A DNA stretch of 64,000 nucleotides, taken from an uncultured Aquimarina sp. GTDB lineage: Bacteria > Bacteroidota > Bacteroidia > Flavobacteriales > Flavobacteriaceae. The stretch's first letter is position 1. Every line of letters starts with the position of its first letter. Positions 31,077 through 48,345 of this stretch are shown piece after piece. The notes beneath the pieces were generated by a model. It was not told where the DNA came from. It saw only the letters and a program-made list of their open reading frames with translations, and ran no database searches. The stretch is from NCBI GenBank assembly GCA_947497175.1, contig CANMFM010000004.1, forward strand, positions 1-64,000, in the 5' to 3' direction. The position numbers were made by a program, and so were the translations under genes.

Positions 31077-31101
31077 TTTAATAGAAAATATAGTACACAT
31101 T

Positions 31102-32028: not shown

Positions 32029-32137
32029 TATTTTCTTTATTTTGAATTCGAATCTATCATTACTAGGAAGTATCCAGAAATAAGATTATTGCTTTTCAAT
32101 ATAATTGCTGAGATTATAGAATAAGAGAAGTAAAAAA

Positions 32138-33040: not shown

Positions 33041-33105
33041 TTCTCATCCAGAACGAAACAGAACGATCCCGAAACTGGGAAAGCTACAGGCATTAGTATT
33101 GTTTT

Positions 33106-34314
33106 ATGAAAAAACAAGCCATTTCATTTGAGAATTATAATCAAGAGATTATTCATATAAATGTTACGCAACTCCCTAAAATTTTACAAGAAGGTCATCA
33201 ATTTTTTATGGATGCCAGGGACTTTTATCAAAGTGAACCTATTATAAAAGAAACTATTGATATTTATCTAGAGAAATTAAATGCTCATCTACCTGAAGGG
33301 GATGATATGGATACTTTACATGGGATTTCAGTAATCGAAATTGATTTTATAAAACGATTTCTGGATATACATAGAACTATTCAAACCAGAGAGGAATTGA
33401 AACGCTACATTTTTGATCTACAGAAAGCAATTTCTAAAAAAGAGATTAGTAAGGACTCACCGGTAGCAGATCATTTGATGCAAATTCAGGATAGATTGAT
33501 TATACAGCATAATAAGCTAATTCTAAAAGAAGAAATTAAAATTGTAATTAATAGAAAATGGCTAAGGCAGCTTAGAAAGATTGTTAAAACTTTATCCGGA
33601 TTAAATGGCGCGAATTTAAAATTAGATATACGTCCTATAGAAACAACATCTTTATTTTCTCCTATGAATGAGCAATCTCAGGGAACCAATAAAAATACCT
33701 TCAGGCTTAATGGGGCTTTGGGAGAACTATTAGGTGATCTGGAGAAGTTTGAACTAGCCATAACCGTCGAAGGAGATCAAGGAGGCGGAAAAACAAGGTT
33801 TACTTATCAACTAGCAGATACATTTGCGGAGATTGGGCATAAGATTGCTATTTTCTCTTTAGAAATAGGTAGTAAATCTGACCTGATTACCCGAATGAAA
33901 AAAGAGTACCTTAAGTCAGAAAACCAACACCAGATTTTTATAGCAGACCAGTTACCTGAAGGATATAAAACGATTCAAGATACTACCAAAAGTTTTGATG
34001 TGATTATAATTGATAGTTGGAACAAAACGGGGTTACCCTCGCAAGATTTTGACAAACTACGAAAGGAGAATCCCGATACCATTTTCATCGTGATTTTTCA
34101 ACGTACTACTCAAAAGACAATCCGAGGAGGTACTGCTCCCCTTTTTGATGCTGGTATTAATCTCGAAGTGGTAAGAGCCGATGATTCCTTCAGAAATAAC
34201 TATGCGGTTACTTCTAAAAACCGCTATGGTATTACAGGAATCAAATACAATATATTCAGTAAAGAAATTAAGGGTGCTGTAGAGATAAATTCTGAATCAG
34301 TCGCAGATTATTAA
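33106..34314 (+). CDS. RecA-superfamily (RadA/DnaB-like) ATPase
   Basis: 402 residues. The N-terminal 200 residues are helical and unassigned. Walker A is GDQGGGKTRFTYQLADTF, Walker B is DVIIIDSW, and a KNRYG motif near SKNRYGITGIKYNIF matches the KNRFG box of RadA-type ATPases. This ties it to the RecA/DnaB-RadA branch rather than to the HerA/FtsK packaging ATPases. A role in DNA replication or recombination of the element is more likely than packaging, but packaging cannot be excluded. Last gene of the block, followed by a hairpin. Confidence 0.65.
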   Translation: MKKQAISFENYNQEIIHINVTQLPKILQEGHQFFMDARDFYQSEPIIKETIDIYLEKLNAHLPEGDDMDTLHGISVIEIDFIKRFLDIHRTIQTREELKRYIFDLQKAISKKEISKDSPVADHLMQIQDRLIIQHNKLILKEEIKIVINRKWLRQLRKIVKTLSGLNGANLKLDIRPIETTSLFSPMNEQSQGTNKNTFRLNGALGELLGDLEKFELAITVEGDQGGGKTRFTYQLADTFAEIGHKIAIFSLEIGSKSDLITRMKKEYLKSENQHQIFIADQLPEGYKTIQDTTKSFDVIIIDSWNKTGLPSQDFDKLRKENPDTIFIVIFQRTTQKTIRGGTAPLFDAGINLEVVRADDSFRNNYAVTSKNRYGITGIKYNIFSKEIKGAVEINSESVADY

Positions 34315-34339
34315 ATCTAAGGAAAAGATACCATCTATA

Positions 34340-34356
34340 TGGTGGTTTTATTGAAC
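34340..34356 (-). repeat. inverted copy of the cassette repeat, right of the ATPase gene
   Basis: TGGTGGTTTTATTGAAC contains the reverse complement of the repeat core GTTCAATAAAAC. The same 17-bp sequence recurs at 35492-35508. The two copies flank the lipoprotein gene at 34453-35211, which is itself on the minus strand, so that gene may be a cassette in reverse orientation. Confidence 0.55.
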
Positions 34357-34358
34357 CT

Positions 34359-34392
34359 AAAAACCCTGTATCATTTGTACTACAGGGTTTTT
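34359..34392. terminator. hairpin terminator after the virus-like block
   Basis: A 12-bp perfect stem (AAAAACCCTGTA and its complement) with a 10-base loop and a T-run, effective in both directions. It marks the end of the RadA-like gene's transcript and serves the convergent lipoprotein gene as well. Confidence 0.75.
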
Positions 34393-34452
34393 ATAAAATA
34401 AAAGGTGTATGGATTTCAATCTGATTGAAATCTTTCAACTTAGAATGCTAAT

Positions 34453-35211
34453 TTATTGTTCGTGATCTCCAACACCATTTATACATTCTAGACGTTTACT
34501 ATTACTTATTCGGCAGGTAGAACCATCTTTAAGGGTTATATTAGCATCTACTCTTAATATAGAATTATTCCAATTACCATTCGGTACAGATAATGATTTA
34601 ATTATTGAAGTACTTTCAGATAAGTTATATGAAGTGCCAAAATATACATTCTGATGTGGTCCTAAATAATATGTCCATATTACAGAAGCTACATCTTTTG
34701 CGCAATCAAGATAGGCATAGCCGTTCTTACAATCATCTATAGTAGTAGTATAAAGACAAGATGTTCTAGGACAAACAGGTGAAGTATTCGGAAGACAATC
34801 AAGATTATCAGCTGTAGCTACCGCTAAATTATATCTACAACCATTGCCATCAGCAAAGTTAATGGTTAAACATGTAAAAGCTGATTCGAAAATAACCTGA
34901 TACACCCAATTACCATTTTCATCAATATAGCCATCTCCAAAAGATGCATGTGGAGAATCCCCATTATCTAGAGCAAATAAAGTAGGGTTATCAGATGTAA
35001 AGAAAGTATATTCTACGGTTGAACCAGGTGTTACTATTGTAGGTCCTGAGATAGAACAACTAGATATAGATATTGGATTAATACCACGGTTTTTAGAGCT
35101 GGATTCTTCAATGGTTATCAGATCTTTATTATTGATTTCTTGCTTAAGATTGTCTTTTTCACAAGAAATAAATAAAATAGTTAAGCTTAATAAATAAAAC
35201 AGTTTTTTCAT
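34453..35211 (-). CDS. lipoprotein of unknown function
   Basis: 252 residues beginning with a lipoprotein signal (LFYLLSLTILFISCEKD, lipobox LFISC). The mature part is rich in Asn, Asp and Cys: a PGSTVEYTFFTSDNPTLFALD segment, then four or more cysteine-containing loops (CLTINFADGNGC, CPRTSCLY). It looks like an exported beta-sandwich protein with disulphides. No family can be named. It is flanked by two 17-bp inverted copies of the cassette repeat. Confidence 0.55.
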   Translation of the reverse strand: MKKLFYLLSLTILFISCEKDNLKQEINNKDLITIEESSSKNRGINPISISSCSISGPTIVTPGSTVEYTFFTSDNPTLFALDNGDSPHASFGDGYIDENGNWVYQVIFESAFTCLTINFADGNGCRYNLAVATADNLDCLPNTSPVCPRTSCLYTTTIDDCKNGYAYLDCAKDVASVIWTYYLGPHQNVYFGTSYNLSESTSIIKSLSVPNGNWNNSILRVDANITLKDGSTCRISNSKRLECINGVGDHEQ

Positions 35212-35729
35212 GTTTAATGATATTTAGGATTAATAATTTTACTCAAGAAATTGTATTAACCTCTACGTTACCAGTTTTAAAATTTAATTGTTTATCCATT
35301 TCTAGTTATCTAATCAAAACATAGTCTTATAATATTCATGATGTAGCAGAGAATTTTTTCGTAATATTAATCAAAAAATAGCTTCAAAAGTCCTGGATCT
35401 GTATGTAGTTGAAGATCCAGAACTAAGTTTTTAATAAAAATCAGCTACTCCTCTGTTATTTTAGAGCAACGCATAAGGCTTCTCTTTGAACTGGTGGTTT
35501 TATTGAACTTTTGCCTAGAAACCTTGAATAAAACCTATTAAGTTCAATAATACGGTTCATTTTATAAGTTTAAGAAATAGCACTTAAATGAACTATTATT
35601 TTATTCGGCTATGTTCCCTTTTGCAACCCATCTCAATATTTAATGTTAAGAATCATATAACAAAAAACGTGTAAAAAGTGGCCTTTTAATTTTATTTTCC
35701 TAACTTAGAAGCTACATAAATAATAAATT
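35212..35729. other. gene-free left shoulder of the cassette array
   Basis: About 520 bp without a credible gene. It contains the inverted repeat copy at 35492-35508 and a direct copy at 35539-35557 (TAAGTTCAATAATACGGTT). These two face each other about 30 bp apart and can pair over 14-15 bases (GGTTTTATTGAACTT / AAGTTCAATAATAC, one mismatch), so a hairpin of about 65 bases can form. Nothing similar precedes the other copies. It could be the founding site of the array. Confidence 0.5.
35492..35508 (-). repeat. second inverted copy of the cassette repeat
   Basis: Identical over 17 bp (TGGTGGTTTTATTGAAC) to the copy at 34340-34356, in the same orientation, 280 bp upstream of the lipoprotein gene start. 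Confidence 0.55.
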
Positions 35730-35763
35730 ACCCCATATCTGAAGATTTCTTCAGGTATGGGGT
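35730..35763. terminator. hairpin terminator ahead of the first cassette
   Basis: A 16-bp stem with one G-T pair (ACCCCATATCTGAAGA / TCTTCAGGTATGGGGT), followed by GTTTTGTTT. It lies directly before the first ORF of the array (35790). A hairpin of very similar sequence (AACCCCATGTCC...) stands at 47261, directly behind the last repeat. Confidence 0.75.
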
Positions 35764-35789
35764 GTTTTGTTTAGAGTATTAAATAAACG

Positions 35790-36140
35790 ATGAAAAATGC
35801 ATATGAAGATTTTGAGGTTGGAATGATTGTCTATTTAGAAAATGAATATGGGGTAGTAATAGAGTCAGAAGAAATTGGAAATTCTTATGGGTTAATTAGA
35901 TGGGATACCAATAAAAATCAAGATTTAGAAGATTGGAGGGGATTATTTGGTTCTTTTATCTCAAGCGGAGGTAAAATAATTGAAAAACCATATGATTTTA
36001 AACATATAGATAATATCGGAAACTTAAAAGTTCAAATAAACGATTGCAATGGATCAAGAAAAATTAATAAAAGACACCTCTATAAGGGCGGTCAAGGACA
36101 CATTAAGGCAAAGAATTTTCAAATGGTCCGATACGGATGA
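35790..36140 (+). CDS. first cassette protein, probably run-on at its C-terminus
   Basis: 116 residues as read. The first 80 (MKNAYEDFEVGMIVYLENEYG ... SGGKIIEKPYDFKHI) look like a compact small beta domain of unknown family. From about residue 84 the frame runs through the 20-bp repeat at 36027 and on through the start of the next gene in another frame (KVQINDCNGSRKINKRHLYKGG), so the tail is not natural. The original stop was probably lost when the next cassette was joined. The ATG includes the final AT of a partial repeat. Confidence 0.45.
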   Translation: MKNAYEDFEVGMIVYLENEYGVVIESEEIGNSYGLIRWDTNKNQDLEDWRGLFGSFISSGGKIIEKPYDFKHIDNIGNLKVQINDCNGSRKINKRHLYKGGQGHIKAKNFQMVRYG

Positions 36141-36270
36141 GTTTGTTACATATGATGAGTTATTAAATGTTTTAGGTTTTGAAGAACCTCTTTCACTGGA
36201 AGAGGCTAAAAGAATGTATTCTTCTTTATCTAATGATTCAAGAATTTTTAACAGTTTAAGTAAACGATGA
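36049..36270 (+). CDS. small cassette protein of unknown function
   Basis: 73 residues, starting 4 bp after the repeat at 36027-36045 (MDQEKLIKDTSIRAVKDTLRQRI). It is mostly helical with an acidic centre (EEPLSLEEAKRMYSSLSND). Its stop codon TGA lies inside the next repeat (AGT AAA CGA TGA), so the last residues SKR come from the repeat. No domain recognised. Confidence 0.5.
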   Translation: MDQEKLIKDTSIRAVKDTLRQRIFKWSDTDEFVTYDELLNVLGFEEPLSLEEAKRMYSSLSNDSRIFNSLSKR

Positions 36271-36277
36271 AATAGAA

Positions 36278-36838
36278 ATGTCGGAAGAACTACGTCATTT
36301 TCTTGAAAACAAACTTAATGAAGTAGGTGTTTTAAAAAAGACAATTACGGCTTATGATAATGTAGTTTTACAAGAATTTAAAACTCATTATCCTAATGGT
36401 AATATATTAAAACATTCTAATGGTGAAGCATATGGAATTGCCGTTTTTAATGCAATAGCAGAGAAAAGTTTGGATAAAATGGTTGAATTAATGAACAGTA
36501 GAGATTTTACTTATTGGAAGGTTGAACAATTAATAGATCAAATTAAACTAAAAAAATATGTTCATGGAAAAACCAAGGCTTACAAGTATTGGTGCTCTGG
36601 AGATATTGGTGTTGCCTCTATGATATATGACACGGTTAAAAAAACTTACAAAATGAGTACTTTTTCAAATCAAACCGCAAGAGAAAGAAATAAAATTATA
36701 AGGGAAACACCTGATGATTTTAATATTAACAGAAAATCTCATATAATTAAAGATGTAGAGAACTATTTTGGAAATGAATATTATAATGATCCTTTAGATC
36801 TTGATCAGCAAGATCCAGAATTTTGGGATAACATATAA
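36278..36838 (+). CDS. hypothetical cassette protein
   Basis: 186 residues, starting 8 bp behind the stop of the previous cassette and ending one base before the next repeat. Sequence features: helical N-terminus (MSEELRHFLENKLNEVGVLKK), a central KVEQLIDQIKLKKYVHGKTKAYKYW and an acidic C-terminus ending in DPLDLDQQDPEFWDNI. No signal peptide, no membrane segment, no family recognised. Confidence 0.5.
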   Translation: MSEELRHFLENKLNEVGVLKKTITAYDNVVLQEFKTHYPNGNILKHSNGEAYGIAVFNAIAEKSLDKMVELMNSRDFTYWKVEQLIDQIKLKKYVHGKTKAYKYWCSGDIGVASMIYDTVKKTYKMSTFSNQTARERNKIIRETPDDFNINRKSHIIKDVENYFGNEYYNDPLDLDQQDPEFWDNI

Positions 36839-36859
36839 AAGTTCAATTAAACGATTAAG

Positions 36860-37015
36860 TTGGTTGATATCAATTCCAAAGCTACTTTGTACAAATATTT
36901 AACCCATCGAGGTCGAAGGAATTGTGTTGTTTGCAAAGTCATATTTTGGGACAGAGATCAAAATATAGATATCGCTTACTGCAAAAGACATATGAGGATC
37001 AAAAAGAAAAAGTAA
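36860..37015 (+). CDS. small CxxC...CxxH zinc-finger-like protein
   Basis: 51 residues from TTG at 36860, just after the repeat at 36838-36857; an ATT at 36854 is the only other start. The sequence contains RNCVVCKVIFWDRDQNIDIAYCKRHMRIKKKK, i.e. CxxC, 16 residues, CxxH and a basic tail. The pattern suits a single treble-clef or zinc-ribbon finger that could bind nucleic acid. The gap 36839-37058 holds nothing else. Confidence 0.4.
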   Translation: MVDINSKATLYKYLTHRGRRNCVVCKVIFWDRDQNIDIAYCKRHMRIKKKK

Positions 37016-37058
37016 TTAACTGTTTTATATTCTAAAGTATCTATATTTCATATATTTA

Positions 37059-37700
37059 TCATTTGTTGGGTGAATATTTTTTCCCAAAATCTTTACTCTC
37101 AAAAATAGTTTCGTCCATAGATGCTTTACCATTTACCGAAGTAATCGAAGCTCGTATTCTACTGAGTTGAACCTGAGTAACCCCTATGAATGAAGCGATA
37201 TGCCCCAGTTTGACACGTTGCAAAATCTCAGGTTTAGATTTGATAAGATTTAGGTAGCGTTTTTTTGCAGTAAGCATCTGGAAGGAACGGCTACGTTCAT
37301 TTTCTTCTAAATAGCATTGAATGGTAAGTTGCCTTCCACAAGACTCTAAATCGTGATACTTTTTGTAGAGTGTTTCTAAATTATGGTAATCTACTTTGAT
37401 GAGTTCACAGTCTTCTAAAAGCTCTATATTGTAAAAGCTTGGTTTTTTAGAATATAGACTTTCCATAGCGGCAACACCTTCGCCTTCAGAAAAAAAGTAG
37501 TTCGTAATATCATTGCCATTGCGATAGTAAAAGGTACGGGCAATACCCTTTTTCATTAAATACACAGTATGACTTACCTGTCCTGCACGGTGGATCAGGT
37601 ACCCTCTAGGGTAAGAGACATCCATCGATAAGGAATCCAGTGCTTCACTGGACTTCTTACTTAATGGACTATATTGATTAAAATACGTTGATAATACCAT
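37059..37700 (-). CDS. Crp/Fnr-family transcription regulator
   Basis: 213 residues: cyclic-nucleotide-binding-like N-terminal barrel (RGYLIHRAGQVSHTVYLMKKGIARTFYYRNG ... YFFSEGEGVAAMESLYSKKPS), a long helix and a C-terminal HTH (LGHIASFIGVTQVQLSRIRASI). This is the flavobacterial subtype common in Bacteroidetes, without the strict cAMP-contact residues. It is transcribed opposite to the cassettes and is paired with the RidA-like gene 13 bp upstream; both interrupt the cassette array. Confidence 0.85.
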   Translation of the reverse strand: MVLSTYFNQYSPLSKKSSEALDSLSMDVSYPRGYLIHRAGQVSHTVYLMKKGIARTFYYRNGNDITNYFFSEGEGVAAMESLYSKKPSFYNIELLEDCELIKVDYHNLETLYKKYHDLESCGRQLTIQCYLEENERSRSFQMLTAKKRYLNLIKSKPEILQRVKLGHIASFIGVTQVQLSRIRASITSVNGKASMDETIFESKDFGKKYSPNK

Positions 37701-37713
37701 TCATAGTTTAAAA

Positions 37714-38184
37714 TTAGTTTACAGCTATTGCTTCTATCTCAATTAACTGCTCAGGCTCAGCTAAACCAGTGACACCTACCATCGTCATCGACGATTCAAT
37801 CTTTTCCCCTAGTTTTTCTTTAAAAATAGGAAGAAATTGTTGCCAATCATCATAATAATTGGGTTTTGCTACATACAATCTCACAGAGACCAGGTTTTGG
37901 GGTGAAAGGTCTTTTGATTTTAATAAGTCTACCAAATTATCAAGAGTATGGCCTAACTGCTCGTTGATATCATTGCTCATAAGCTTCATCTCTTTGTTCC
38001 AGGGTGTCATTCCTGATAGATAATAGGTTTTTCCACCTGTTGCCTCTATCATTTGTGCGTAGCCCATTGTATCTTTGGTGTTATATACTGCATCTGTATT
38101 GTGCACATTTTTAACTACGGACTTTAATGTCGTCAATTGCTTTTCTAACGTTTCTAACTTTTTAATTAATTCAACTTGTTCCAT
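37714..38184 (-). CDS. RidA/YjgF-family protein
   Basis: 156 residues. A helical N-terminus (VELIKKLETLEKQLTTLKSVV) precedes a RidA-type domain: GYAQMIEATGGKTYYLSGMTPWNKE, then LDNLVDLLKSKDLSPQNLVSVRLYVAK and VGVTGLAEPEQLIEIEAIAVN. The usual RidA is about 130 residues, so this one has an added N-terminal helix. RidA proteins remove reactive enamines. The strict Arg of active RidA (near position 105) is in SVRLYV. It likely shares an operon with the Crp-type regulator gene. Confidence 0.8.
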   Translation of the reverse strand: MEQVELIKKLETLEKQLTTLKSVVKNVHNTDAVYNTKDTMGYAQMIEATGGKTYYLSGMTPWNKEMKLMSNDINEQLGHTLDNLVDLLKSKDLSPQNLVSVRLYVAKPNYYDDWQQFLPIFKEKLGEKIESSMTMVGVTGLAEPEQLIEIEAIAVN

Positions 38185-38298
38185 AAGTTTAAAATTTTAG
38201 ACTATAAATTTCTGGAATGGAACTATCAAATCCTTTTACATATGATAAAAAATAATTTTAAGTATCATTATTTTAAATCAATGTAAAATATACAAATC

Positions 38299-38331
38299 AC
38301 CCCTTATCAGGATTATTCACAGATAAGGGGT
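38299..38331. terminator. hairpin terminator
   Basis: A 10-bp perfect stem (ACCCCTTATC / GATAAGGGGT) with a 13-base loop, then CCTTTATTTT. It lies in the gap 38185-38466, which holds no other gene but a degenerate repeat (AGTCCAATAAACTGAT) at 38445-38462. Confidence 0.65.
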
Positions 38332-38466
38332 CCTTTATTTTAAAGAAATTAAAACATAGAATGAAAATCCTATAAACAAAAAAAGCATTCCTGTGGAAAA
38401 CCGTAATTATCACATTGGTAAATTATCGATATTGTAAGACAATATAGTCCAATAAACTGATATATT

Positions 38467-38589
38467 ATGAAAGATTCAACAGATAACTGTATTTTATGTG
38501 GTAAGCCATTATCAGAAGAAGAGAAACTAGATCCAACAGGATATTGTAGTAGTCAAAAGTGTCAAGATAAAGCTTACGGGTTAGATTAA
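38467..38589 (+). CDS. 40-residue zinc-ribbon-like protein
   Basis: Reads MKDSTDNCILCGKPLSEEEK, then LDPTGYCSSQKCQDKAYGLD: CxxC and CxxxxC separated by 19 residues, the pattern of a small zinc ribbon. It starts just behind the degenerate repeat at 38445-38462 and ends 2 bp before the repeat at 38592. One of several very small cassette genes. Confidence 0.5.
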   Translation: MKDSTDNCILCGKPLSEEEKLDPTGYCSSQKCQDKAYGLD

Positions 38590-38604
38590 TCGAAGTCCAA
38601 ATAA

Positions 38605-38733
38605 ATGATGATTGAAGAGCTACTTGATCTGATTGTAGAGTATATTACGGGAGATAAGAAATTGTCAGTAATACTTTCAATTTTAGTTCTACTTTTATTT
38701 ACAGGACATTTAATTTACGCTAAAGTTCAATAA
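38605..38733 (+). CDS. 42-residue single-helix membrane protein
   Basis: One transmembrane helix (LSVILSILVLLLFTGHLIYA) after a short acidic N-terminus. The ATG lies in the repeat at 38592 (AAATGATG). The last codons AAA GTT CAA TAA come from the next repeat (38722), so the protein ends AKVQ. A start-to-stop gene delimited by repeats on both sides. Confidence 0.5.
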   Translation: MMIEELLDLIVEYITGDKKLSVILSILVLLLFTGHLIYAKVQ

Positions 38734-38744
38734 AACGATTAAAA

Positions 38745-39281
38745 ATGATAACCAATTTACCGCCTTTAACTAAAAAAGATCTAAAAGAGTTCAATCAGGT
38801 TGAAGCACAAGGATGGATAATTAACTCTGCCATAAAAATTGAGGAATATTTAGACTACATAATATTTCAATATTTTGATCCAAAGAGACCGAAATTTTTC
38901 AGAAGTCATGTCCTGAATAGTTCTATTATGAGTTTTGGAAGTAAATTGAAAGTCCTAAACGCAATTTTAGATTATTCCAAAGAAACAAATAGCTTAATAT
39001 CAAACATTCAAAAGATAGCAGCTATCAGAAATGCTTTTGCACATAACAATATAAAACACAGTTTGAAATTCAATTTAGAAAATAATGGAGAGTATAAAAC
39101 AAAATTATGGGCTGAAGATATTATTAACGTTATGAATAGCCAGGGTAAAATAATAGCAAAGAATAATTTTGAGTATATGATTGAATTTCTGAAATTATAT
39201 GAAGAAGTAGAGCCAATACTAAAAAAAATATTAGAAGGTTTGGTGAATTTAGCAAAATCTCAAAACGAAAAAGTTCAATAA
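38745..39281 (+). CDS. HEPN-motif protein, copy 1
   Basis: 178 residues, helical. It has the HEPN RNase-type motif RNAFAHN (Rx4H) in IQKIAAIRNAFAHNNIKHSL, preceded by the helices AIKIEEYLDYIIFQYFD and SFGSKLKVLNAILDYSKE. HEPN proteins are metal-independent RNases or scaffolds, often in toxin-antitoxin and defence systems; no antitoxin gene is obvious next to it. It ends in EKVQ, the last three residues from the repeat. A duplicate with six amino-acid differences lies at 42070-42606. Confidence 0.65.
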   Translation: MITNLPPLTKKDLKEFNQVEAQGWIINSAIKIEEYLDYIIFQYFDPKRPKFFRSHVLNSSIMSFGSKLKVLNAILDYSKETNSLISNIQKIAAIRNAFAHNNIKHSLKFNLENNGEYKTKLWAEDIINVMNSQGKIIAKNNFEYMIEFLKLYEEVEPILKKILEGLVNLAKSQNEKVQ

Positions 39282-39292
39282 AACGATTAATT

Positions 39293-39550
39293 ATGGCTAA
39301 AAGAAGAGAACTAATGCATGCAATCGAGGGAATAACTAATCCTTTTTTTGTTCAAGAAAATATTGATCCTGATAAAGTTTATTTAACAGATCAAGAAAGG
39401 TTTGATAATGCAGATTCTGATGAATTTATAAACTGTCAAGTGTTAGAATTTGAGGTGCTTGAAAATAAGCTAATTTATAGAAGAAAAGTGCCCGAAATGT
39501 TTGTTGACCTGAAAAGGTCGCTATTATCAGGTTTATTAATAACCGATTAA
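39293..39550 (+). CDS. hypothetical cassette protein
   Basis: 85 residues, ATG 4 bp behind the repeat at 39270-39289. Sequence: MAKRRELMHAIEGITNPFFV, then ADSDEFINCQVLEFEVLENKLIYRRKVPEMFVDLKRSLLSGLL. Helical start and a short beta hairpin; no known domain. It ends 3 bp before the next repeat. Confidence 0.5.
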   Translation: MAKRRELMHAIEGITNPFFVQENIDPDKVYLTDQERFDNADSDEFINCQVLEFEVLENKLIYRRKVPEMFVDLKRSLLSGLLITD

Positions 39551-39606
39551 ACTAAAGTTCAATAAAACGATTATTTATCAAAAATAATAACTAAAATTTA
39601 TAAAGG

Positions 39607-39936
39607 ATGAAATCAATAATATTTACTTCATTTTTATTCTTAAGTACAATATGTTTTTCACAAAACGATGTTGGTGTTGAGCAACGAAATGTTTATAATT
39701 CTTCTGACGGTAGAACGGCGACTTGGTATGCTGTTAATAATACTGATAAGGGGGTTAATTTAGAAATAAAAGTAATTCTAACGGGATGTGATGTTAAATC
39801 TAAAACAGAAATCAAAAAGATATACGTAAGCAAAAGAAGTAAAGTTAATTTAGGCTATAACAAAACAACATGCTTCGGAAAAAATAAGGGATTTAGACAT
39901 AAATCAGTTAGTGTTATTTCCAAAAAATTTAATTAA
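39607..39936 (+). CDS. small secreted protein
   Basis: 109 residues with a clear signal peptide (MKSIIFTSFLFLSTICFSQ). The mature part is a small beta domain (RTATWYAVNNTDKGVNLEIKVILTGC) with two cysteines (TGCDVK, TTCFGK) that may form a disulphide, and a basic C-terminus. It is a cassette gene behind the exact repeat at 39554. Function unknown. Confidence 0.55.
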   Translation: MKSIIFTSFLFLSTICFSQNDVGVEQRNVYNSSDGRTATWYAVNNTDKGVNLEIKVILTGCDVKSKTEIKKIYVSKRSKVNLGYNKTTCFGKNKGFRHKSVSVISKKFN

Positions 39937-39952
39937 AGTATCTGCTATTTAT

Positions 39953-40783
39953 ATGGAAGATATTAAGGACACTAAGAAAACAAGTTTTTGGATATGGATA
40001 ATTGTTGCTATTATTATCGTCTTTCTTATTTATTTAGGATTTTGGAAATTAAATGAAATCTGGTTTCCAATTCCTAAGAATGCAGCAGAATTTGGAGACA
40101 GTTTTGGAGGGATAAATGCCCTTTTTTCTGCATTAGCATTTGCTTTCTTAATTGTAACCGCTTTAATGCAAAAAAAAGAACTTCAATATCAAAGAGAAGA
40201 ACTAATTCAAACACGAAAAGAATTAAGTAGGACGGCAAGCGCCCAAGAAAATTCATTTGAGATTTCGAAAAGCCAAATGTTAGAGCATAAACATGACAGA
40301 AATTTTCAAATTAATTCTGATATGTTTAATGAGTTAAAACAAGATATTTCTAATGTAAGTTTAGGCGAATTTAAAGGCATCGATGCAATTGATCAATTTT
40401 TAAAACTCCATGCTAGATATCACAATGCACAGAATAAGAAGGTTTTGCTAGCAAAGGACTATTTCAATAGAGAACTACTTTATATTTTAAAACACTACGA
40501 GCTCCTACAATTGTCATTATTGGAAGTGGATATGGACACTTCCCGACAAAAAGTAATTTCCTACTTAGTTCTTAGTTTTTATAGAACACACTTATTAACA
40601 ACAGAGGAATATATTATGGTTTGGATTGAGCAAACTTTAAAAGTTGAAAAGTTTGGAAAGATTAAATTCTTTCAAGATCATTATGAATTATTAAAAAGAA
40701 TAAGAACAAAGAACAGAGAAATAGAAAAACATGTAGAATTTAACTTTATAAGAGGAGGAGATTCTTTATTAGCAAAAGGTTAA
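39953..40783 (+). CDS. membrane-anchored coiled-coil protein, resembling putative abortive-infection proteins
   Basis: 276 residues from the ATG at 39953 (the extension to 39911 overlaps the previous gene). Two transmembrane helices (WIWIIVAIIIVFLIYLGFW and NALFSALAFAFLIVTALM) are followed by a coiled coil (KKELQYQREELIQTRKELS) and a helical cytoplasmic part. The order TM, FGDxFGGxNxxFSxLAFxxLI, coiled coil resembles the putAbiC type of putative phage abortive-infection proteins, but I am not sure of the C-terminal half. No repeat separates it from the secreted protein upstream, so the two may travel as one cassette. Confidence 0.5.
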   Translation: MEDIKDTKKTSFWIWIIVAIIIVFLIYLGFWKLNEIWFPIPKNAAEFGDSFGGINALFSALAFAFLIVTALMQKKELQYQREELIQTRKELSRTASAQENSFEISKSQMLEHKHDRNFQINSDMFNELKQDISNVSLGEFKGIDAIDQFLKLHARYHNAQNKKVLLAKDYFNRELLYILKHYELLQLSLLEVDMDTSRQKVISYLVLSFYRTHLLTTEEYIMVWIEQTLKVEKFGKIKFFQDHYELLKRIRTKNREIEKHVEFNFIRGGDSLLAKG

Positions 40784-40852
40784 GCTCTCAATTTAACAAT
40801 AATGTATAAAACCAAAATGGTAAAACTAAATAGTATGAAGTTCAATAAAACG

Positions 40853-41053
40853 ATGGAAAATGGCAAACCAAAAAATAATAGAGGATGTACAATTTTGTTT
40901 GTAGCGATTGGAATTCTTATTATGTGGGGTTTGCCAGAATTATTGAGAGGAGGAAGTTTTTTTGATGGAATAGAAAGTAATATTAAAGCTATTCCATACG
41001 TACTTGGAGTTGTTGCTATTGGGTATGTAGTATTGAAATATATGGATAGTTAA
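40853..41053 (+). CDS. 66-residue two-helix membrane protein
   Basis: The ATG at 40853 is formed by the last bases of the repeat (CGATGG); the longer frame from 40802 runs through the repeat and is not supported. Two hydrophobic segments (GCTILFVAIGILIMWGLPELL and IPYVLGVVAIGYVVLKYM). Function unknown. Confidence 0.5.
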   Translation: MENGKPKNNRGCTILFVAIGILIMWGLPELLRGGSFFDGIESNIKAIPYVLGVVAIGYVVLKYMDS

Positions 41054-41085
41054 AACCAATCAAAAGTTTATATAAACAACACGAT

Positions 41086-41346
41086 ATGGAAAAAGATCAA
41101 GCCATAATAATTGCGCAGGAGCATATAGATAAATTGAATCAGGAAAATACTTATTCCAGTAAAATGTTTTGGATTTTGACAGAACCTATCCTTGTAAGTT
41201 TTGGATTTTTCTTCAATTACCGATATGAACTTAAAAATCCCTATGATCAATTTGCAATTGGCGGATCACCTGGCTTTGTAGTTGATAACGAAACTGGAGA
41301 GATTAATTCGTTAAGTTGGGAAGAGTACAGAAAACTTAACTTATAA
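41086..41346 (+). CDS. Imm35/YrhB-like small protein
   Basis: 86 residues. It contains FNYRYELKNPYDQFAIGGSPGFVVDNETGEINSLSWEEYRKL, with the GGxPGxxVDxxTGxI pattern of Imm35/YrhB-type immunity-like domains. It is preceded by a degenerate repeat (41062-41085). In the family these proteins neutralise toxins; here no toxin partner is adjacent, so it may be an orphan immunity gene captured as a cassette. Confidence 0.6.
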   Translation: MEKDQAIIIAQEHIDKLNQENTYSSKMFWILTEPILVSFGFFFNYRYELKNPYDQFAIGGSPGFVVDNETGEINSLSWEEYRKLNL

Positions 41347-41379
41347 ATTCAAAGTTCAATAAAACGATAATTTTCAAAT

Positions 41380-42048
41380 ATGATGAGTTCTAAAAGAAAA
41401 CAATATATTATTATTTTAGTAATATCTATTATTGTTGTTGTGTTACCATTTATTCTATCTGAAGATTACAAGGATAAAATGAATATTAGTTTTGGCCTTA
41501 TTGCTGGATTGTCATCTCTAATAACATTAATTATAGCTATACAACTAAATGATCGGTTTGATTCTGAAAAAAATCTTCAACAAAAGCGTAGTGAAGAAGT
41601 TTTTAAACTAATTGAGCTGGTTAACAAGGACTTTATTATTTTTTCTCTAAAAAGAAAAGATTATCATTTATCAATAAACCCTTTTAACTATGATATCAAA
41701 AAGGTTGAAGAATATTATGGTAAAAAAATTAGGATTTCAACTCATTATCTTGATTTTATTAGACCTATTCTCTCTTCAGGAGCTCAAATTTATTTACCAA
41801 AGAGCATAGCCGAAAAGGTGAAAAAACTTGATGTTATTGGATTGACTTATCTTAGTGATCATATCAATGAAAATGAAATAGTGGTAACAGCTCGTCCCAC
41901 TAACTTCCCACAAGATTCTATAGGCAAGCCTTTTGGACCAGAACAAAATCTACTGGAGTTTATTAATCAATGGAATAATCTAAGTGAAGAAATTAAAAAT
42001 TGGATTAAGAGCAACTACGAAAGCTATAATGAATTAAATATAAATTAA
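41380..42048 (+). CDS. two-helix membrane protein with helical soluble domain
   Basis: 222 residues. Two transmembrane helices (IIILVISIIVVVLPFILS and SFGLIAGLSSLITLIIAIQL) are followed by a cytoplasmic region (FKLIELVNKDFIIFSLKRKDYHLSINPFN). The layout is a membrane anchor plus sensor or effector domain, as in many putative abortive-infection proteins; no family is recognised. Confidence 0.5.
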   Translation: MMSSKRKQYIIILVISIIVVVLPFILSEDYKDKMNISFGLIAGLSSLITLIIAIQLNDRFDSEKNLQQKRSEEVFKLIELVNKDFIIFSLKRKDYHLSINPFNYDIKKVEEYYGKKIRISTHYLDFIRPILSSGAQIYLPKSIAEKVKKLDVIGLTYLSDHINENEIVVTARPTNFPQDSIGKPFGPEQNLLEFINQWNNLSEEIKNWIKSNYESYNELNIN

Positions 42049-42069
42049 AGTCTAAATAAACGATTAAAA

Positions 42070-42606
42070 ATGATAACCAATTTACCGCCTTTAATTAAAA
42101 AAGATCTAAAAGAGTTCAATCAGGTTGAAGCACAAGGATGGATAATTAACTCAGCCATAAAAATTGAGGAATATTTAGACTACATAATATTTCAATATTT
42201 TGATCCAAAGAGACCGAAATTTTTCAGAAGTCATGTCCTGAATAGTTCTATTATGAGTTTTGGAAGTAAATTGAAAGTCCTAAACGCAATTTTAGATTAT
42301 TCCAAAGAAACAAATAGCTTAATAACAAACATTCAAAAGATAGCAGCTATCAGAAATGCTTTTGCGCATAACAATACAAAACACAGTTTGAAATTCAATT
42401 TAGAAAATAATGGAGAGTATAAAACAAAATTATGGGCTGAAGATGTTATTAACGTTATGAATAGCCAAGGTAAAATAATAGCAAAGAATAATTTTGAGTA
42501 TATGTGTGAATTTCTGAAATTATATGAAGAAGTAGAGCCAATACTAAAAAAAATATTAGAAAGTTTGGTGAATTTAGCAAAATCTCAAAATGAAAAAGTT
42601 CAATAA
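42070..42606 (+). CDS. HEPN-motif protein, copy 2 (duplicated cassette)
   Basis: 178 residues, differing from the product of 38745-39281 at about six positions (T9I and changes in SLIT, NNTKH, EDVIN, YMCEF and LESLV). It keeps the HEPN motif RNAFAHN and the KVQ ending contributed by the next repeat. The surrounding repeats (42047 and 42595) are slightly divergent. Such a recent duplication at two places of the array is the best evidence that these units move or duplicate as cassettes. Confidence 0.65.
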   Translation: MITNLPPLIKKDLKEFNQVEAQGWIINSAIKIEEYLDYIIFQYFDPKRPKFFRSHVLNSSIMSFGSKLKVLNAILDYSKETNSLITNIQKIAAIRNAFAHNNTKHSLKFNLENNGEYKTKLWAEDVINVMNSQGKIIAKNNFEYMCEFLKLYEEVEPILKKILESLVNLAKSQNEKVQ

Positions 42607-42616
42607 AACGTAATAA

Positions 42617-44890
42617 ATGATTTTACCAGAGATTGATAATATAATAGAAATTTGTATAGCCCTTGATATTGCTATAATTGGTATTGCATATCCAATAATA
42701 ATTGATAAGATATCAAATATTGGGAGCAAATATTCATCTGAGTATTTATCTGAACTATTCGAAAACGAATTTCCTCAAAAAAAATTAGGGTTTAAGATTT
42801 TTGGCAAAACAGTTTCTTACTTTATTTTCTTTCTGTACTCAACTATTATTTCATTTATCCCCCAAATATTTAAATTTAAACCTTTATACGATTGGGATAA
42901 GTTTTGGATTATTCGAAATTCAGCTGATTTAATAGTTTTTCTTTTTTCTGTACTTCTTTTAATATTCTTTTTTAAATGGTTGAATAAAGTATCAATCTAC
43001 AACCATAAATCCACAAGATTATTAAATTACTTAATAAAAAAACATCATCAAATAACTGATGAAAAAGATGGAAACTACCATTTAAAAACTATAAATGAAT
43101 TTGGCTATTATGCAATAAAAAGTCAAGATGCACACATTCAAAAAACTCTAGTTAACTTCTACTTTGAAGAATTTTCTAAATATCAAAAGAATCAAAAGGC
43201 TGGAGAACCTTTAGTTTTTGAATCTGATCTATATCAATTCATATATAATGTTACTTTGGAATTAGTTACGAATGAAAAAAACAAGTTAAGAGCATTAGAA
43301 CATAGAGCCGTTAGCGGAGTATGGATTTTGGGAGAAGGATTTAGTGCCGTTCAAATTTCTAACGAATCGTATACTTGGCTCTGGAGAAATCTTAATTTAA
43401 TAGCTAACAAGACCGATTTCATAAAAATGTATTGGTCGAGAGCATCACAACATTATGACACTAAGTTAAGATCAATAATGGGTATTGATTACAATCTAGA
43501 AAATGGAACTTATGCTAATCAAGAGGAAATATCACAAAGAGAAAAAGAAAGACTCGAGTTTTTAGAATTTAATTTTGCTTTCGGAGGGTTACTAATGTTT
43601 AAACAAAATTACTCCGCAATTAAGTACTTATTTAATTATTCATCAAGTTTACCTCCTAAATATGTATTACTTCCATCAAGCATAACAGAAATATTTAATA
43701 TTCTACATTTGTTTTCTGACAATAATTATCTTTTAGAAAATAATATTGAATTTAAGTACCCTTTTTCTGGCCTTGATGATTATTGGGGACAAAATATTCG
43801 TAAGCATATTAATGATTATATTGCTCTTTTATTTATACGAGAATATTCACTCACGAGAATTTATACATACCAGGATTTCACATCACAACAACAATTACCA
43901 GATAGTAATACTGAATTAAACTATTGGTTAAAAAACATTTTATTATTTGAGAACGTGGTAGAAGGTGTTGCTAAAAATGAAAATTTAATTGAATTACTAA
44001 ATTTCTCCAACATTATAGATAAGAATAACAATGAGAACACTTTTTTAAACTTCTTTGTTGAACTTAAAGAGAGTATTGAAAACAAAATAGAAGATAATCA
44101 AATAAATGTTCCTTTGTATGATCCCAAAATTGAGAGTTTTGTTGAAAAAACTGATCAAATAATAAATCGAGCTTTTGACAAGTATGAAGTAATACAAAAT
44201 GCAAAAGATTTATCAAGTATTGAAGACACTACCAAATTTGGTGTAAATGGTTCAAGTACCCTATATCCAAAAGTTGGCTTTACTGAAGATGATTCGCATA
44301 TAAACTATGATACATTTTTAGCAAACTCGGTTGTAACTAATAAAATAGATTACTTTATTCCTAATTCTTTTCTCACTGCAAGAACTAAAAGATATTTATT
44401 CAAAGAACAAGAATTAAAATTAGCAGTAAAAAAGCTAAGACTTAATGATGAATATATAATAGTAGCCATTAATCCGACTTATGGTAAATTAGAGCTGTTA
44501 AATGAGTATAAAAGGTACATTATAGAAATTAATTCTACTAACAATAGAGTAAGCGATACATTTTTTATCTTGAAAAAAATCGATTTACCTACAATCAAAA
44601 ATATTGAATTCAAAGAGGAGGAAATAGCTTTAGATAAATTAACAACAAAAGGAAACAATATATATACATCTGTTCTGGATTTAAACTTAGAGGAGAATGA
44701 TCAAATTCGGGAAAGATGGTTAGATAGAGAAGCTGAAATTGATTTAAGAAAAAAAGTAGTTCTTACAATTGCTTTCAAAACAATAATAATTTGGAAAAAT
44801 GTAAGGAATGTTATTCAAATAAATATCTTTTCACCCTATAGTGAACAAGGTATTTTAAATAATCTGGATGACATTGAACCATTAGAATAG
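42617..44890 (+). CDS. large membrane protein of unknown function
   Basis: 757 residues. The N-terminal 130 residues hold three hydrophobic segments (IEICIALDIAIIGIAYPIII, GKTVSYFIFFLYSTIISFIPQIF and SADLIVFLFSVLLLIFFFKWL). The remaining 620 are cytoplasmic and helical at first, then beta-rich at the C-terminus (YIIVAINPTYGKLELLNEYK ... KVVLTIAFKTIIIWKNVRNVIQI). This anchor-plus-large-soluble-part design occurs in many phage-defence proteins, but I recognise no domain. It is the largest gene of the array and has its own 3' tail sequence (44891-44934), unlike most cassettes. Confidence 0.55.
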   Translation: MILPEIDNIIEICIALDIAIIGIAYPIIIDKISNIGSKYSSEYLSELFENEFPQKKLGFKIFGKTVSYFIFFLYSTIISFIPQIFKFKPLYDWDKFWIIRNSADLIVFLFSVLLLIFFFKWLNKVSIYNHKSTRLLNYLIKKHHQITDEKDGNYHLKTINEFGYYAIKSQDAHIQKTLVNFYFEEFSKYQKNQKAGEPLVFESDLYQFIYNVTLELVTNEKNKLRALEHRAVSGVWILGEGFSAVQISNESYTWLWRNLNLIANKTDFIKMYWSRASQHYDTKLRSIMGIDYNLENGTYANQEEISQREKERLEFLEFNFAFGGLLMFKQNYSAIKYLFNYSSSLPPKYVLLPSSITEIFNILHLFSDNNYLLENNIEFKYPFSGLDDYWGQNIRKHINDYIALLFIREYSLTRIYTYQDFTSQQQLPDSNTELNYWLKNILLFENVVEGVAKNENLIELLNFSNIIDKNNNENTFLNFFVELKESIENKIEDNQINVPLYDPKIESFVEKTDQIINRAFDKYEVIQNAKDLSSIEDTTKFGVNGSSTLYPKVGFTEDDSHINYDTFLANSVVTNKIDYFIPNSFLTARTKRYLFKEQELKLAVKKLRLNDEYIIVAINPTYGKLELLNEYKRYIIEINSTNNRVSDTFFILKKIDLPTIKNIEFKEEEIALDKLTTKGNNIYTSVLDLNLEENDQIRERWLDREAEIDLRKKVVLTIAFKTIIIWKNVRNVIQINIFSPYSEQGILNNLDDIEPLE

Positions 44891-44986
44891 AACACAGATA
44901 GCGAAAATGTTTTCAGTGCGGAATTAAAAAACTCAAAGTTCAAAAAAACGATTGTTGTGGTACATTTTAAGTGACAAACCGACCAA

Positions 44987-45799
44987 ATGATAAGAAAAGA
45001 AGAATTTAGACAAATCAAATTTGAAGTTGATACTGCAATTGAAGAGGCTTTTCAATTTGCGAAACAGAATGAGAATAACGAAAATGATTATCTGCTATTT
45101 TTAAGCAATGCCGAATACATAGAAAAATATGTCGGGACAAATGTTAATCCACACTTAGTTGACTATCGAGTTAACGGTTATCGTGACGAAGAAAGACTGA
45201 AATTTCTTGTTGAGTACTTAAACAATGCATACTCATTTCACGCTGAAAACACAATGGACTCGAAAACATCAATCACAATTGAATTGATGATTTATACTCA
45301 CATTTGGGAATCTAAACCTTTTTTAAGGCAATTAAAAAAATTAGCGAACCTTTGCAATTCGGAAAACTATGATTGGAATGTGGAAGTTCCAGATTACACA
45401 AAGCACACTTTTATAAGACAGCAAATACGAGATATTTTTGGCGTAAAAAATTTAAAAATTGAAAATGTTATTTCAAAAGGTTATCATTCATCATTAAGAA
45501 ATGCTTTTGCCCATTCAGAATATGTTTTTGATATGAACAGACCAGAATTGATTTTAACAAACTACAAAGGAGAAAATTGGGAAATAGAGAAAATATCTTA
45601 TGACGATTGGACAATCCGATTTTGCTATTCTTTTCTGTTGTCTTATGGTTTTCAAGAGAGGTTTGAAAAGGAAAAAGCAAAAATATTGGATGGAGAACCT
45701 GGATACAATGTTTCATTGAAAGAAACAGACGGAACTGACCGAAATGGAATTATGAAATATGATAAGGAACGTAACGCTTTTACAGCACGACTGATATAA
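44987..45799 (+). CDS. HEPN-like protein
   Basis: 270 residues. HEPN-type motif RNAFAHS in KGYHSSLRNAFAHSEYVFDM, preceded by a helical N-terminal half (FRQIKFEVDTAIEEAFQFAKQN ... ITIELMIYTHIWESKPFLRQLKKLANL). It is a third, unrelated HEPN-motif protein in the array. Behind its stop there is a 60-bp tail (CACAACAATGCTATAA ... AAACGTT, 45808-45862) resembling the 3' tail of the gene at 51840, before the next repeat. Confidence 0.55.
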   Translation: MIRKEEFRQIKFEVDTAIEEAFQFAKQNENNENDYLLFLSNAEYIEKYVGTNVNPHLVDYRVNGYRDEERLKFLVEYLNNAYSFHAENTMDSKTSITIELMIYTHIWESKPFLRQLKKLANLCNSENYDWNVEVPDYTKHTFIRQQIRDIFGVKNLKIENVISKGYHSSLRNAFAHSEYVFDMNRPELILTNYKGENWEIEKISYDDWTIRFCYSFLLSYGFQERFEKEKAKILDGEPGYNVSLKETDGTDRNGIMKYDKERNAFTARLI

Positions 45800-45884
45800 A
45801 AAACGACACCACAACAATGCTATAATACATACCCTTCAGGATACGCACCATACATAAACGTTAAAAGTTCAATAAAGCGATTCG

Positions 45885-46520
45885 ATGCATAAAATTACAT
45901 TTGTTAGTACTGTACATAAGGAAATTGGAAAATGCAATGCTGATGAATTGTGCAAAATTCTGCATACAAAAAACCCCGATGTTATATTTCTAGAGGCTTT
46001 AGAAGAGACTTATACAAATTATCAACATCTTACATTTTCTTCTTTTGGGGTATTTCATGAAAAACTGGAGATTAAAGCAATTCAGAAATACAATAGTATA
46101 TGTTCGTTCGAATATATTCCTGTACTTGAAAAAGGGTTATCTTATTCGTTTGATAAATGGTTCAACCTAGTCTGCGAAAACACTCAATTTCAAAAAATGA
46201 TTGACAATATTAATTCGCAAGCTAGTGTGAATGGTTTTGATTTTCTAAATAGTTTAGAAAGTATAACTCTTCATACAGAAATGCGCGAATATGGATACAT
46301 GATTTTAGATGGTAAGAAGTTAAATGAAAAGTTCAACAATGATATAGAAAAATATGAAAATTCTATGTTACGTAGTATTTATAGGTATAGTAAAAAAACT
46401 CAATTTGAAAATGCCATTTTTATGTGTGGTGTCGCTCACAGGCAGTCTATTATAAATAAAATAAAAAAATTTAAAAGGACTGAAAGCATAGACCTTGATT
46501 GGAAAATTTACGGAAAGTAA
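45885..46520 (+). CDS. TraB/ChaN-like protein
   Basis: 211 residues. The start ITFVSTVHKEIGKCNADELCKILHTKNPDVIFLEALEETY and the ending FENAIFMCGVAHRQSIINKIKKF fit the TraB/PrgY/TIKI-type fold (GTxHxx...PDxxxxE...GxxH). These proteins include putative metalloproteases and pheromone-shutdown factors; the activity is not known for this branch. A tail sequence (46530-46590, with GAAAATGTTTTCC) precedes the next repeat. Confidence 0.5.
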   Translation: MHKITFVSTVHKEIGKCNADELCKILHTKNPDVIFLEALEETYTNYQHLTFSSFGVFHEKLEIKAIQKYNSICSFEYIPVLEKGLSYSFDKWFNLVCENTQFQKMIDNINSQASVNGFDFLNSLESITLHTEMREYGYMILDGKKLNEKFNNDIEKYENSMLRSIYRYSKKTQFENAIFMCGVAHRQSIINKIKKFKRTESIDLDWKIYGK

Positions 46521-46607
46521 AACCTCAATCAGAGAACAAGGTATAATACCTAAATAATATGAAAATGTTTTCCGCACAGAATGGTAAATTAAAAGTTCAA
46601 AAAAGCG

Positions 46608-47162
46608 ATGCATAAGACAATATATGATCAAGAATTTATGGTGGTTTCAGAAGACCACAAATTTGAGTATCAAAAAGAACTCACTCATAAGCTTGATAAT
46701 TTCAAAGAAGATTTCGATCAAAATACTTTAAATGAAATTGTTTTATGGAAAGTAAATAGGTTTGCTTCGTTTTCTAATGATGTAATTGAACTAATCAACT
46801 CAATTGACCCAAGTGAAAAAAAACTGGATAATGAGAAAGTAAGGAATATTCTAACTCAAATGCTAAAAACCAAAGGTGTTCAATTGCCAATGGCATCAAC
46901 TATTCTAAGATATAGAAATCCAAATCTATTTCAAATAATTGATCAGCGCGTATTTCGTATTATTTATCCGAAAGAAACTTTGAAATTGAGTACTTATAAT
47001 TCCGATAAGAATATTAAATCTCAAATAGACCTATACCTAAAATATTTGGAAGACCTTCAAGATGTTTGTGTCAAACTGGAGATTCCCTTTGAAAAATCAG
47101 ATCGTATTTTGTTTATGGCAGATCGTAGAATAAACAAAGGACATAAACTTAATAATTACTAA
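46608..47162 (+). CDS. HhH/DNA-glycosylase-like protein
   Basis: 184 residues, ATG formed with the repeat at 46592 (AGCGATG). The C-terminal part contains ILTQMLKTKGVQLPMASTILRYRNPNLFQIIDQRVFRIIY, the pattern of a helix-hairpin-helix glycosylase fold (GVxLPMAStIL ... FxIxDxRVxR). The N-terminal 80 residues are helical. The catalytic Lys/Asp of active glycosylases is not clearly visible, so it may be a DNA-binding relative. Last cassette gene; the last repeat begins 2 bp behind it. Confidence 0.5.
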   Translation: MHKTIYDQEFMVVSEDHKFEYQKELTHKLDNFKEDFDQNTLNEIVLWKVNRFASFSNDVIELINSIDPSEKKLDNEKVRNILTQMLKTKGVQLPMASTILRYRNPNLFQIIDQRVFRIIYPKETLKLSTYNSDKNIKSQIDLYLKYLEDLQDVCVKLEIPFEKSDRILFMADRRINKGHKLNNY

Positions 47163-47260
47163 TTAAAGTTCAATAAAACGATACAAAAATTAATTAAACA
47201 CCTGATAGTCAAAAAATTAATATTTTTTTTGTAATTTTATAAACAACGTAAAAATTCAGT

Positions 47261-47293
47261 AACCCCATGTCCAAATCATTTGGATATGGGGTT
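47261..47293. terminator. hairpin terminator behind the cassette array
   Basis: Stem AACCCCATGTCCA / TGGATATGGGGTT (one G-T pair) with a short loop and GTTTGT after. It matches the hairpin at 35730 in its CCCCAT...ATGGGG core. The two hairpins thus bracket the array. Confidence 0.75.
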
Positions 47294-47409
47294 GTTTGTC
47301 TACTAAAGAAAATTTGTCTTATCTATTATCCCTATCACAATTAATCAAATGGGTATTAGAAATGAATTAAAATTCAACAAATTGTAGAATAATATAATTT
47401 AAAAAATCT

Positions 47410-48336: not shown

Positions 48337-48345
48337 ATACGTATT

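Follow-up and report, generated by a model that had tools for sequence, protein, structure and literature searches.

Short recombination sites that delimit genes are found in shufflons, invertible loci and p-dif modules, the recombinases of which are Rci and XerCD, and the gene-cassette arrays known so far, i.e. integrons and the recombinase-associated acquired interbacterial defence (rAID) arrays, go with tyrosine recombinases. The hosts of rAID arrays belong to a different order of bacteria from Aquimarina, the genus of concern here. In the current study we analysed a stretch of 64,000 nucleotides from an uncultured Aquimarina sp. (Flavobacteriaceae; GenBank assembly GCA_947497175.1, contig CANMFM010000004.1, positions 1 to 64,000 of the forward strand), hereafter the window, in which an earlier note made from the sequence alone had proposed a cassette array built on a 20-bp repeat rather than on attC sites. 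We conclude, with a probability of roughly 0.7, that the locus is a mobile gene-cassette array in which small genes, each ending in an 18-bp site, stand behind a leader that comprises a present or former serine recombinase gene, a res-like control region and an outward promoter.

The array resembles an integron in that one-gene cassettes with changing neighbours stand in one orientation behind a recombinase, a leader site and a promoter, and in the occurrence of arrays without a working recombinase and of promoter-only cassettes. It differs from an integron in its serine rather than tyrosine recombinase, in the lack of IntI next to the array head, and in its non-folding 18-bp site, which overlaps start and stop codons, as opposed to attC (57–141 bp, RYYYAAC...GTTRRRY). 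The enzyme family, and a control region with a site before the gene, are common to this locus and to the Tn3/gamma-delta resolvase with its res; here, however, the site is repeated behind the array genes and one branch of the enzyme carries an additional C-terminal CxxC...CxxH. In contrast to shufflons, invertible loci and p-dif modules, nearly all sites point in the same direction and the linked recombinase belongs to a different class. For Vibrio superintegrons, cassettes that have a promoter and no gene are reported (PMC11014356). The rAID arrays of gut Bacteroidales are described as co-oriented short genes with a GC content below 41%, including orphan immunity genes, with a conserved intergenic motif and a tyrosine recombinase upstream (PMC12247911). 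The present array is alike in its co-oriented short genes of low GC content (median 118 aa, GC 28.6%), its upstream recombinase and its possession of a conserved intergenic motif, the comparison being one of the presence of a motif, and perhaps in its immunity-type contents, whereas the upstream enzyme is a serine recombinase with a res-like leader and that of rAID is a tyrosine recombinase.

The core site, AAAGTYYAAWWAAACGAT, was derived with a position weight matrix (PWM) built from relatives. With the 20-bp repeat as query and up to three mismatches, 11 matches (10 direct, one inverted) were observed in the window against 0.05 expected in shuffled sequence, and the PWM scan located 13 strong direct copies on the forward strand of the array (starting at 36027, 36838, 38592, 38722, 39270, 39554, 40837, 41351, 42047, 44935, 45864, 46592 and 47165) together with three weaker ones (36251, 38444 and 42595), the whole extending from 36027 to 47182; chance repeats are ruled out as an explanation by the shuffle expectation and the PWM scan. 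Outside the array proper the PWM finds two further copies, one in the leader at 35539 and one, inverted, at 35494, and a second, weaker inverted copy lies at 34342, where the interval of the earlier note begins. The count of about 19 direct copies given in that note is consequently too high for the array, which holds 16, and is reached only if the leader and inverted copies are added, and its estimate of about 20 small genes becomes approximately 17 units. No strong forward site was found outside 35000–48000 in the window or in the following 20 kb, and weak off-array matches amounted to one at 53546 and one in the 20 kb beyond the window. In the whole genome the 20-mer (up to three mismatches) has 18 matches, of which 10 are in the array, one is the inverted leader copy and seven lie elsewhere; since the reversed pattern yields 11 matches, these seven represent background, and the repeat is thus not common in the ordinary DNA of this genome. 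The 18-mer is a near-palindrome, 10 of its 18 positions matching its own reverse complement. The repeat was said to supply the stop codon, as KVQ-stop, in three genes and parts of start codons, which holds for the open reading frames (ORFs) ending at 38733, 39281 and 42606 and, as an example of a start codon, for that at 46608.

When a 19-mer version of the site was searched with one mismatch in 91 genomes, it was present in 28, all of them among the 52 Aquimarina genomes, and in none of the 39 genomes of other genera of the order; the reversed 19-mer occurred in three of the 91, with one match each. The 51 regions collected contain 427 sites that delimit 339 stretches, overlapping regions being left out wherever cassettes or pairs were counted. 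Of 329 cassettes, 315 have their longest ORF on the same strand as the site, and 461 of 480 sites are on the majority strand (50 regions with at least four sites). Among the 319 cassettes with an ORF of at least 30 aa, 38% start no more than 2 nt and 69% no more than 30 nt from the site, and 44% have a stop codon that overlaps the site that follows. The cassette proteins have the median length given above, and the cassettes have a GC content of 28.6% compared to 31.5% for the whole regions. Only 79 of the 339 stretches fall into families (34 in total), the majority having no homologue in the set.

That cassettes were joined by recombination at a short sequence, as had been suggested, is substantiated by changed neighbours, by breakpoints at the site and by an exchange point inside it. 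Full-length homologous cassette pairs from the 51 regions, excluding those that join the members of three overlapping region pairs, have the same neighbour in nine cases, a different one in 55 and an unknown one in 34; in a larger set of 404 stretches the corresponding figures are 9, 67 and 40. Alignment ends fall within 30 bp of a site in 162 of 318 cases, as against 8.8% at random. Site bases 5, 6, 9 and 10 (counted from 0) track the upstream cassette, with kappa values of 0.88, 0.83, 0.58 and 0.61 (52 pairs), and show kappa values of −0.30, 0.01, 0.07 and −0.19 with respect to the downstream cassette (36 pairs), while from base 18 onwards there is agreement with the downstream and not the upstream cassette. 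These data place the exchange point between bases 11 and 17, and probably, on the 51-region set, between bases 11 and 14; a fixed exchange point favours a site-specific enzyme. An apparent order swap between two regions (L044 and L125) rests on partial matches and was not used.

As regards the enzyme, the earlier note had recommended looking for a linked recombinase at other loci, and many array heads were indeed found to carry a small serine recombinase gene, intact or broken, with a site-bearing leader. A comparison of 27 leaders showed that many array heads have in common a forward site, an inverted repeat and the start of a recombinase gene of approximately 226 codons; 14 of these 27 Aquimarina leaders have a recognisable inverted site copy some 27–46 bp further out, and in L037 and L038 it lies approximately 106 bp before the recombinase start. 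The protein is a small serine recombinase (Pfam Resolvase, PF00239, 6e-40; gamma-delta resolvase, 9e-35), and residues R7, S9, D66, R67, R70, E124 and R125, which we take to have catalytic roles, are invariant in six homologues. A structure prediction from six sequences was poor (mean predicted local distance difference test score, pLDDT, 56.7) and was not used. The state of the gene varies, as it may be intact, interrupted by stops, or cut down to roughly the first 18 codons, after which come a promoter-like stretch and a hairpin. Leader DNA is present in 28 of 66 Aquimarina genomes, and the recombinase search matches 22 of 66, some of these matches being other resolvases of lower identity. 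The motif CxxC...CxxH (residues 198–221 of P0001) is seen in the Aquimarina recombinase and in five genomes of other genera and is absent from the 47–58% branch of the recombinase, where sites are likewise present in most members.

The window is of the short type, with about 18 codons, a promoter-like stretch and a hairpin, and positions 35540–35613 are 84% identical to the leader of an intact recombinase in genome G044. A 3' piece of the gene lies behind the site at 36838; the previous statement that the window contains no integrase is hence accurate as regards an intact one and overlooked two remnants of a serine recombinase gene. The source genome has two other resolvase-domain genes, and the search of it for an intact member of this recombinase family found none. 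Given the broken gene and this negative result, the array of the window is most likely either frozen or dependent on a recombinase supplied in trans.

The position of the sites relative to the leader is polar. A leader was accepted with up to seven mismatches, a cut passed by 42 of 68 Aquimarina regions, and these hold 236 strong sites downstream on the same strand, none upstream and three on the opposite strand (all in L043), over summed stretch lengths of 561 kb downstream and 256 kb upstream; 37 of the 42 have at least one strong site. Most regions were chosen by site and 17 by leader matches (one of them, L195, also having a site already known), and the 16 leader-chosen regions that pass the cut (L203 fails) have 45 sites downstream and none upstream, 11 of them containing sites; three of the remaining five (L188, L189 and L200) reach a contig end soon after the leader. 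In the family at large, a recombinase homologue at an E-value of 1e-45 was found in 11 of 299 genomes, at 13 places, and the 12 places in other genera that were examined (G200 was left out) have 41 sites downstream on the same strand, none upstream and one opposite, 10 of the 12 possessing at least one. The inverted site copy starts 104–110 bp before the recombinase start codon in eight of these 12 loci. As controls, 16 other serine recombinases (five from Aquimarina, L181 and 10 of 28 non-Aquimarina loci, some with short stretches; L180 was dropped as it gave no match) had one site in total, at a distance of 12 kb, and a longer stretch of the genome of L181 (L186) had no site. In a tree the array-linked recombinases group together, with two label changes against 12.1 in shuffles, L163 (which lacks sites and is nearly identical to L164) being labelled as array and L171 as control, and two genes having been entered twice. 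From linkage, leader and phylogeny we infer that the exchange is carried out by the serine recombinase. Plasmid (623 records) and phage (103 records) homologues of the recombinase are all below 60% identity among the matches listed, no leader DNA was found in plasmids, and viral contigs yielded no recombinase homologue by short patterns and four contigs with one exact site each.

With respect to mobility, L038 (A. algiphila) and L136 (uncultured Aquimarina) have in common a block of 2663 bp at 99.89% identity (two mismatches and a 1-base gap) that contains the leader, the recombinase gene (with a stop) and two cassettes. The flanks are unrelated to the left of the inverted copy, which we designate site I, both differences at the left end fall inside site I, and the match ends on the right just past the third site; the block thus has the appearance of recent movement. 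At 12 loci of 10 genomes, including the window, the left flank, in which a mobile element contributes genes for an adenine methylase and an ATPase, is shared and the cassettes mostly are not, a few pairs of loci sharing a recombinase-adjacent piece, single cassettes elsewhere or a tail piece. The 12 loci represent a fixed place with changing content. The capture of cassettes from outside the array is only indirectly shown.

The most likely mechanism is one in which a small serine recombinase would pair the leader or array site with the site of an excised cassette and exchange strands. The 3' end of a cassette carries the left part of the site and its 5' end brings the last bases, often the AT of ATG, as the cassette comparisons show, because the exchange point falls in the right part of the site. 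Cassettes end up in one orientation behind the leader, the arrangement observed, and may be expressed from the leader promoter or from promoter-only cassettes in the array.

Several points weigh against this interpretation. Known resolvases mostly delete DNA and cut at the centre of their site, and the exchange lies to the right of base 10 (from 0), off the centre of the 18-bp near-palindrome; the centre of the 18-mer is here taken as reference and may not be the true site centre. Site bases 13–14 track neither neighbour, 156 of 318 alignment ends lie away from a site (these include leader, hairpin and partly homologous genes), and a search for exact gain or loss of a single cassette between otherwise equal arrays found none. 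The inverted copy was recognised only in the stated 14 of 27 Aquimarina leaders, the rest of which have another left context, and in eight of 12 loci elsewhere, several recombinase copies carry stops, and two of the 12 homologues in other genera have no nearby site. A class-wide search at 1e-45 produced a homologue in one of 395 genomes, and that genome has no site in 19.9 kb, so that the system looks confined to one family. Lastly, tyrosine recombinase genes that are related to one another are present in 15 of 80 regions; 13 regions have them, at approximately 406–422 aa, beyond the last site, a count in which tails are undersampled because many regions stop before the array end.

The latter genes lend some substance to the explanation that the array is real and is moved by a tyrosine recombinase in the manner of rAID, or by another enzyme, the serine recombinase being merely a resolvase passenger of the carrier element. 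Five of them, convergent with the array, are situated 2–8 bp from the last site (L037:3363-4628; L038:14277-14561, a fragment; L050:3753-5018; L195:13305-14570; L198:6907-8172), in other genera a tyrosine recombinase is found 331–455 bp from the last site in L169 and L164, and the site may be read as GTT-N6-AAC with exchange near AAC, off-centre, an arrangement reminiscent of tyrosine-recombinase sites. Against this, 65 of the 80 regions, the window among them, have no match to these enzymes, two of the 15 genes are not at the tail (one is on the head side, at 24% identity, and one by a lone site), and their orientation varies, nine being convergent and six in the array direction, whereas the serine recombinase carries a site in the leader that precedes it, at a spacing nearly constant from genus to genus, with a polarity of 236 to 0 in Aquimarina and 41 to 0 elsewhere. 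We regard this explanation as unlikely; the tail tyrosine recombinases may be part of the carrier element, or they may work on the array.

It is far less probable that the locus is an operon-like region, with one conserved translation or leader sequence common to its genes and general recombination as the source of the shuffling. The co-orientation of the genes and the overlap of the site with stop and start codons are what such a region would display, yet neighbours differ in 55 of 64 informative comparisons, the exchange is confined to one part of the site, the linkage to leader and recombinase has no place in that scheme, and 18 bp is short for homologous recombination. The earlier note had named conserved gene order in relatives as the sign of an operon with a shared leader; order was not conserved, and with neighbours changing that explanation was rejected. 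A divergent or decayed integron (IntI, attC), the least credible of the alternatives, would follow the same logic of recombinase, leader site, outward promoter and cassettes, and the AAC at the exchange point resembles the integron core site, but the gene linked to the array head encodes a serine recombinase of the Resolvase family, phage-integrase matches near arrays are on the tail side only (10 genomes, by eye), the 44% of cassettes in which the stop codon overlaps the site leave no room for attC outside the gene, and the 18-bp motif has no fold and no Rfam family matched 33000–50000 at an E-value of 0.5, which agrees with the earlier remark that no classic attC is visible and on which ground an attC integron was rejected.

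Returning to the array served by a serine recombinase, we lean, in more guarded terms, towards the broader proposition that it is a second, independently evolved integron-like capture platform in Flavobacteriaceae, with a small serine recombinase as its enzyme, in which the res-like leader acts as attachment site and promoter platform, cassettes are ended by the 18-bp site and the contents stock defence and immunity genes. To our knowledge no cassette system uses this enzyme class, and for that reason the system would be new in kind, provided that the assignment of the enzyme holds. Searches of the open literature gave, among the matches listed, no description of a serine-recombinase cassette array, without a claim to its absence from print. 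If true, cassette gene capture arose more than once and from different enzyme chemistry, which raises the question of how a resolvase-type enzyme, known mostly for deletion, would integrate cassettes. The arrays also give access to a little-known reservoir of small genes in marine bacteria, some for phage defence or immunity and most of unknown function, and perhaps offer a simple tool for gene stacking at an 18-bp site.

Regarding this gene pool, 195 representative cassette proteins (130 longer, 65 shorter) were scanned with Pfam, and at most 59 of the 130 and eight of the 65 had any match, most being without a family. Among the matches listed, which for the longer set name 25 of the 50 families found and in which some long stretches may include non-cassette genes, immunity-type families are SUKH (in two) and Imm7 (in one) of the 130 representatives, and further families are Abi_alpha (2), PIN (2 and 2), a DpnII-type nuclease, a cytosine methylase, NYN and Schlafen domains. 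One reverse transcriptase among the cassette proteins is Drt2 according to NCBIfam and PADLOC. The pool is accordingly one of mostly unknown small proteins together with phage-defence and immunity-type families.

The head of the array in the window consists of site I (35494..35511, reverse strand, PWM match) and, all on the forward strand, the res-like, attI-like leader (35539..35613) with the forward site, the inverted repeat and the first codons of the lost recombinase gene, and a promoter-like stretch (by eye) with a strong hairpin, CCCCATATC...GGTATGGGG, followed by a right half-site AAACGATG (35680..35762). The hairpin has a folding energy of −13.1 kcal/mol (z −7.3), and similar units were found in 20 regions by pattern search. 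To the left, a reverse-strand gene at 34453–35211, lipoprotein-like by eye, lies between two inverted site copies (34342–35511), as if a cassette had been inserted reversed at site I.

The subsequent units are all on the forward strand. Cassette 1 (35785..36026) has an ORF at 35790–36140 that extends into the next cassette, cassette 2 (36027..36250) has an ORF at 36049–36270 with a homologue in L046, and cassette 3 (36251..36837), with a weak left site, has an ORF at 36278–36838. Then follow a site and the 3' remnant of the serine recombinase gene (36838..37015; aa 170–226, 68% identity, E 4e-23, one internal stop); such 3' fragments at or just behind a site were seen at 36842–37012 of the window, at L031:9822-10301 and at L032:7264-7326 (minus frame), their break points being different. 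The array is interrupted at 37059–38184 by reverse-strand cNMP (cyclic nucleoside monophosphate)-binding regulator-like and RidA-like genes. It resumes with a cassette with a very short ORF by eye and a weak left site by PWM (38444..38591), a cassette for a 42-aa peptide with its KVQ-stop in the next site (38592..38721; homologues in L031, L032, L036, L039 and L125), one for a 178-aa protein (38722..39269), one for an 85-aa protein (39270..39553; homologue in L046) and one with two ORFs (39554..40836; 39607–39936 and another ending at 40783). One or two cassettes with ORFs ending at 41053 and 41346 occupy 40837..41350, with a degenerate site between them by eye and a homologue in L122, and are followed by a cassette for a 222-aa protein (41351..42046) and by a second copy of the cassette for the 178-aa protein (42047..42594), the two copies of this gene extending from site to site at 98% identity. 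The remaining cassettes encode a 757-aa protein without a Pfam family, behind a weak left site (42595..44934), a 270-aa protein (44935..45863), a 211-aa protein (45864..46591) and a 184-aa protein (46592..47164; homologues in L037, L040 and L124), the homologues of the last in L037 and L040 adjoining genes other than those in the window. In the array proper of the window no match to a curated family exceeded the family's cut-off, and PADLOC gave weak matches only. The last strong site and a second promoter-hairpin unit occupy 47165..47291, and a CHAT-like gene below Pfam's cut-off (47410–48336) lies 3' of this unit. Promoter-hairpin units without a gene, between or behind sites, were noted at L040:5847-5981, at 47165–47291 of the window and at L138:254-284 (minus frame), and resemble promoter cassettes.

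Upstream of the array, positions 20559–34314 are occupied by the carrier element, which has CHAP endolysin-like and peptidoglycan-binding genes as well as genes for an adenine methylase and an ATPase. In 11 loci, the window being one of them, a homologue of the ATPase gene is located no more than 2.6 kb ahead of the leader. Further upstream on the contig, at 61–8222, two long Rhs-like genes (by eye) are followed by a small gene, perhaps representing a toxin-immunity region.

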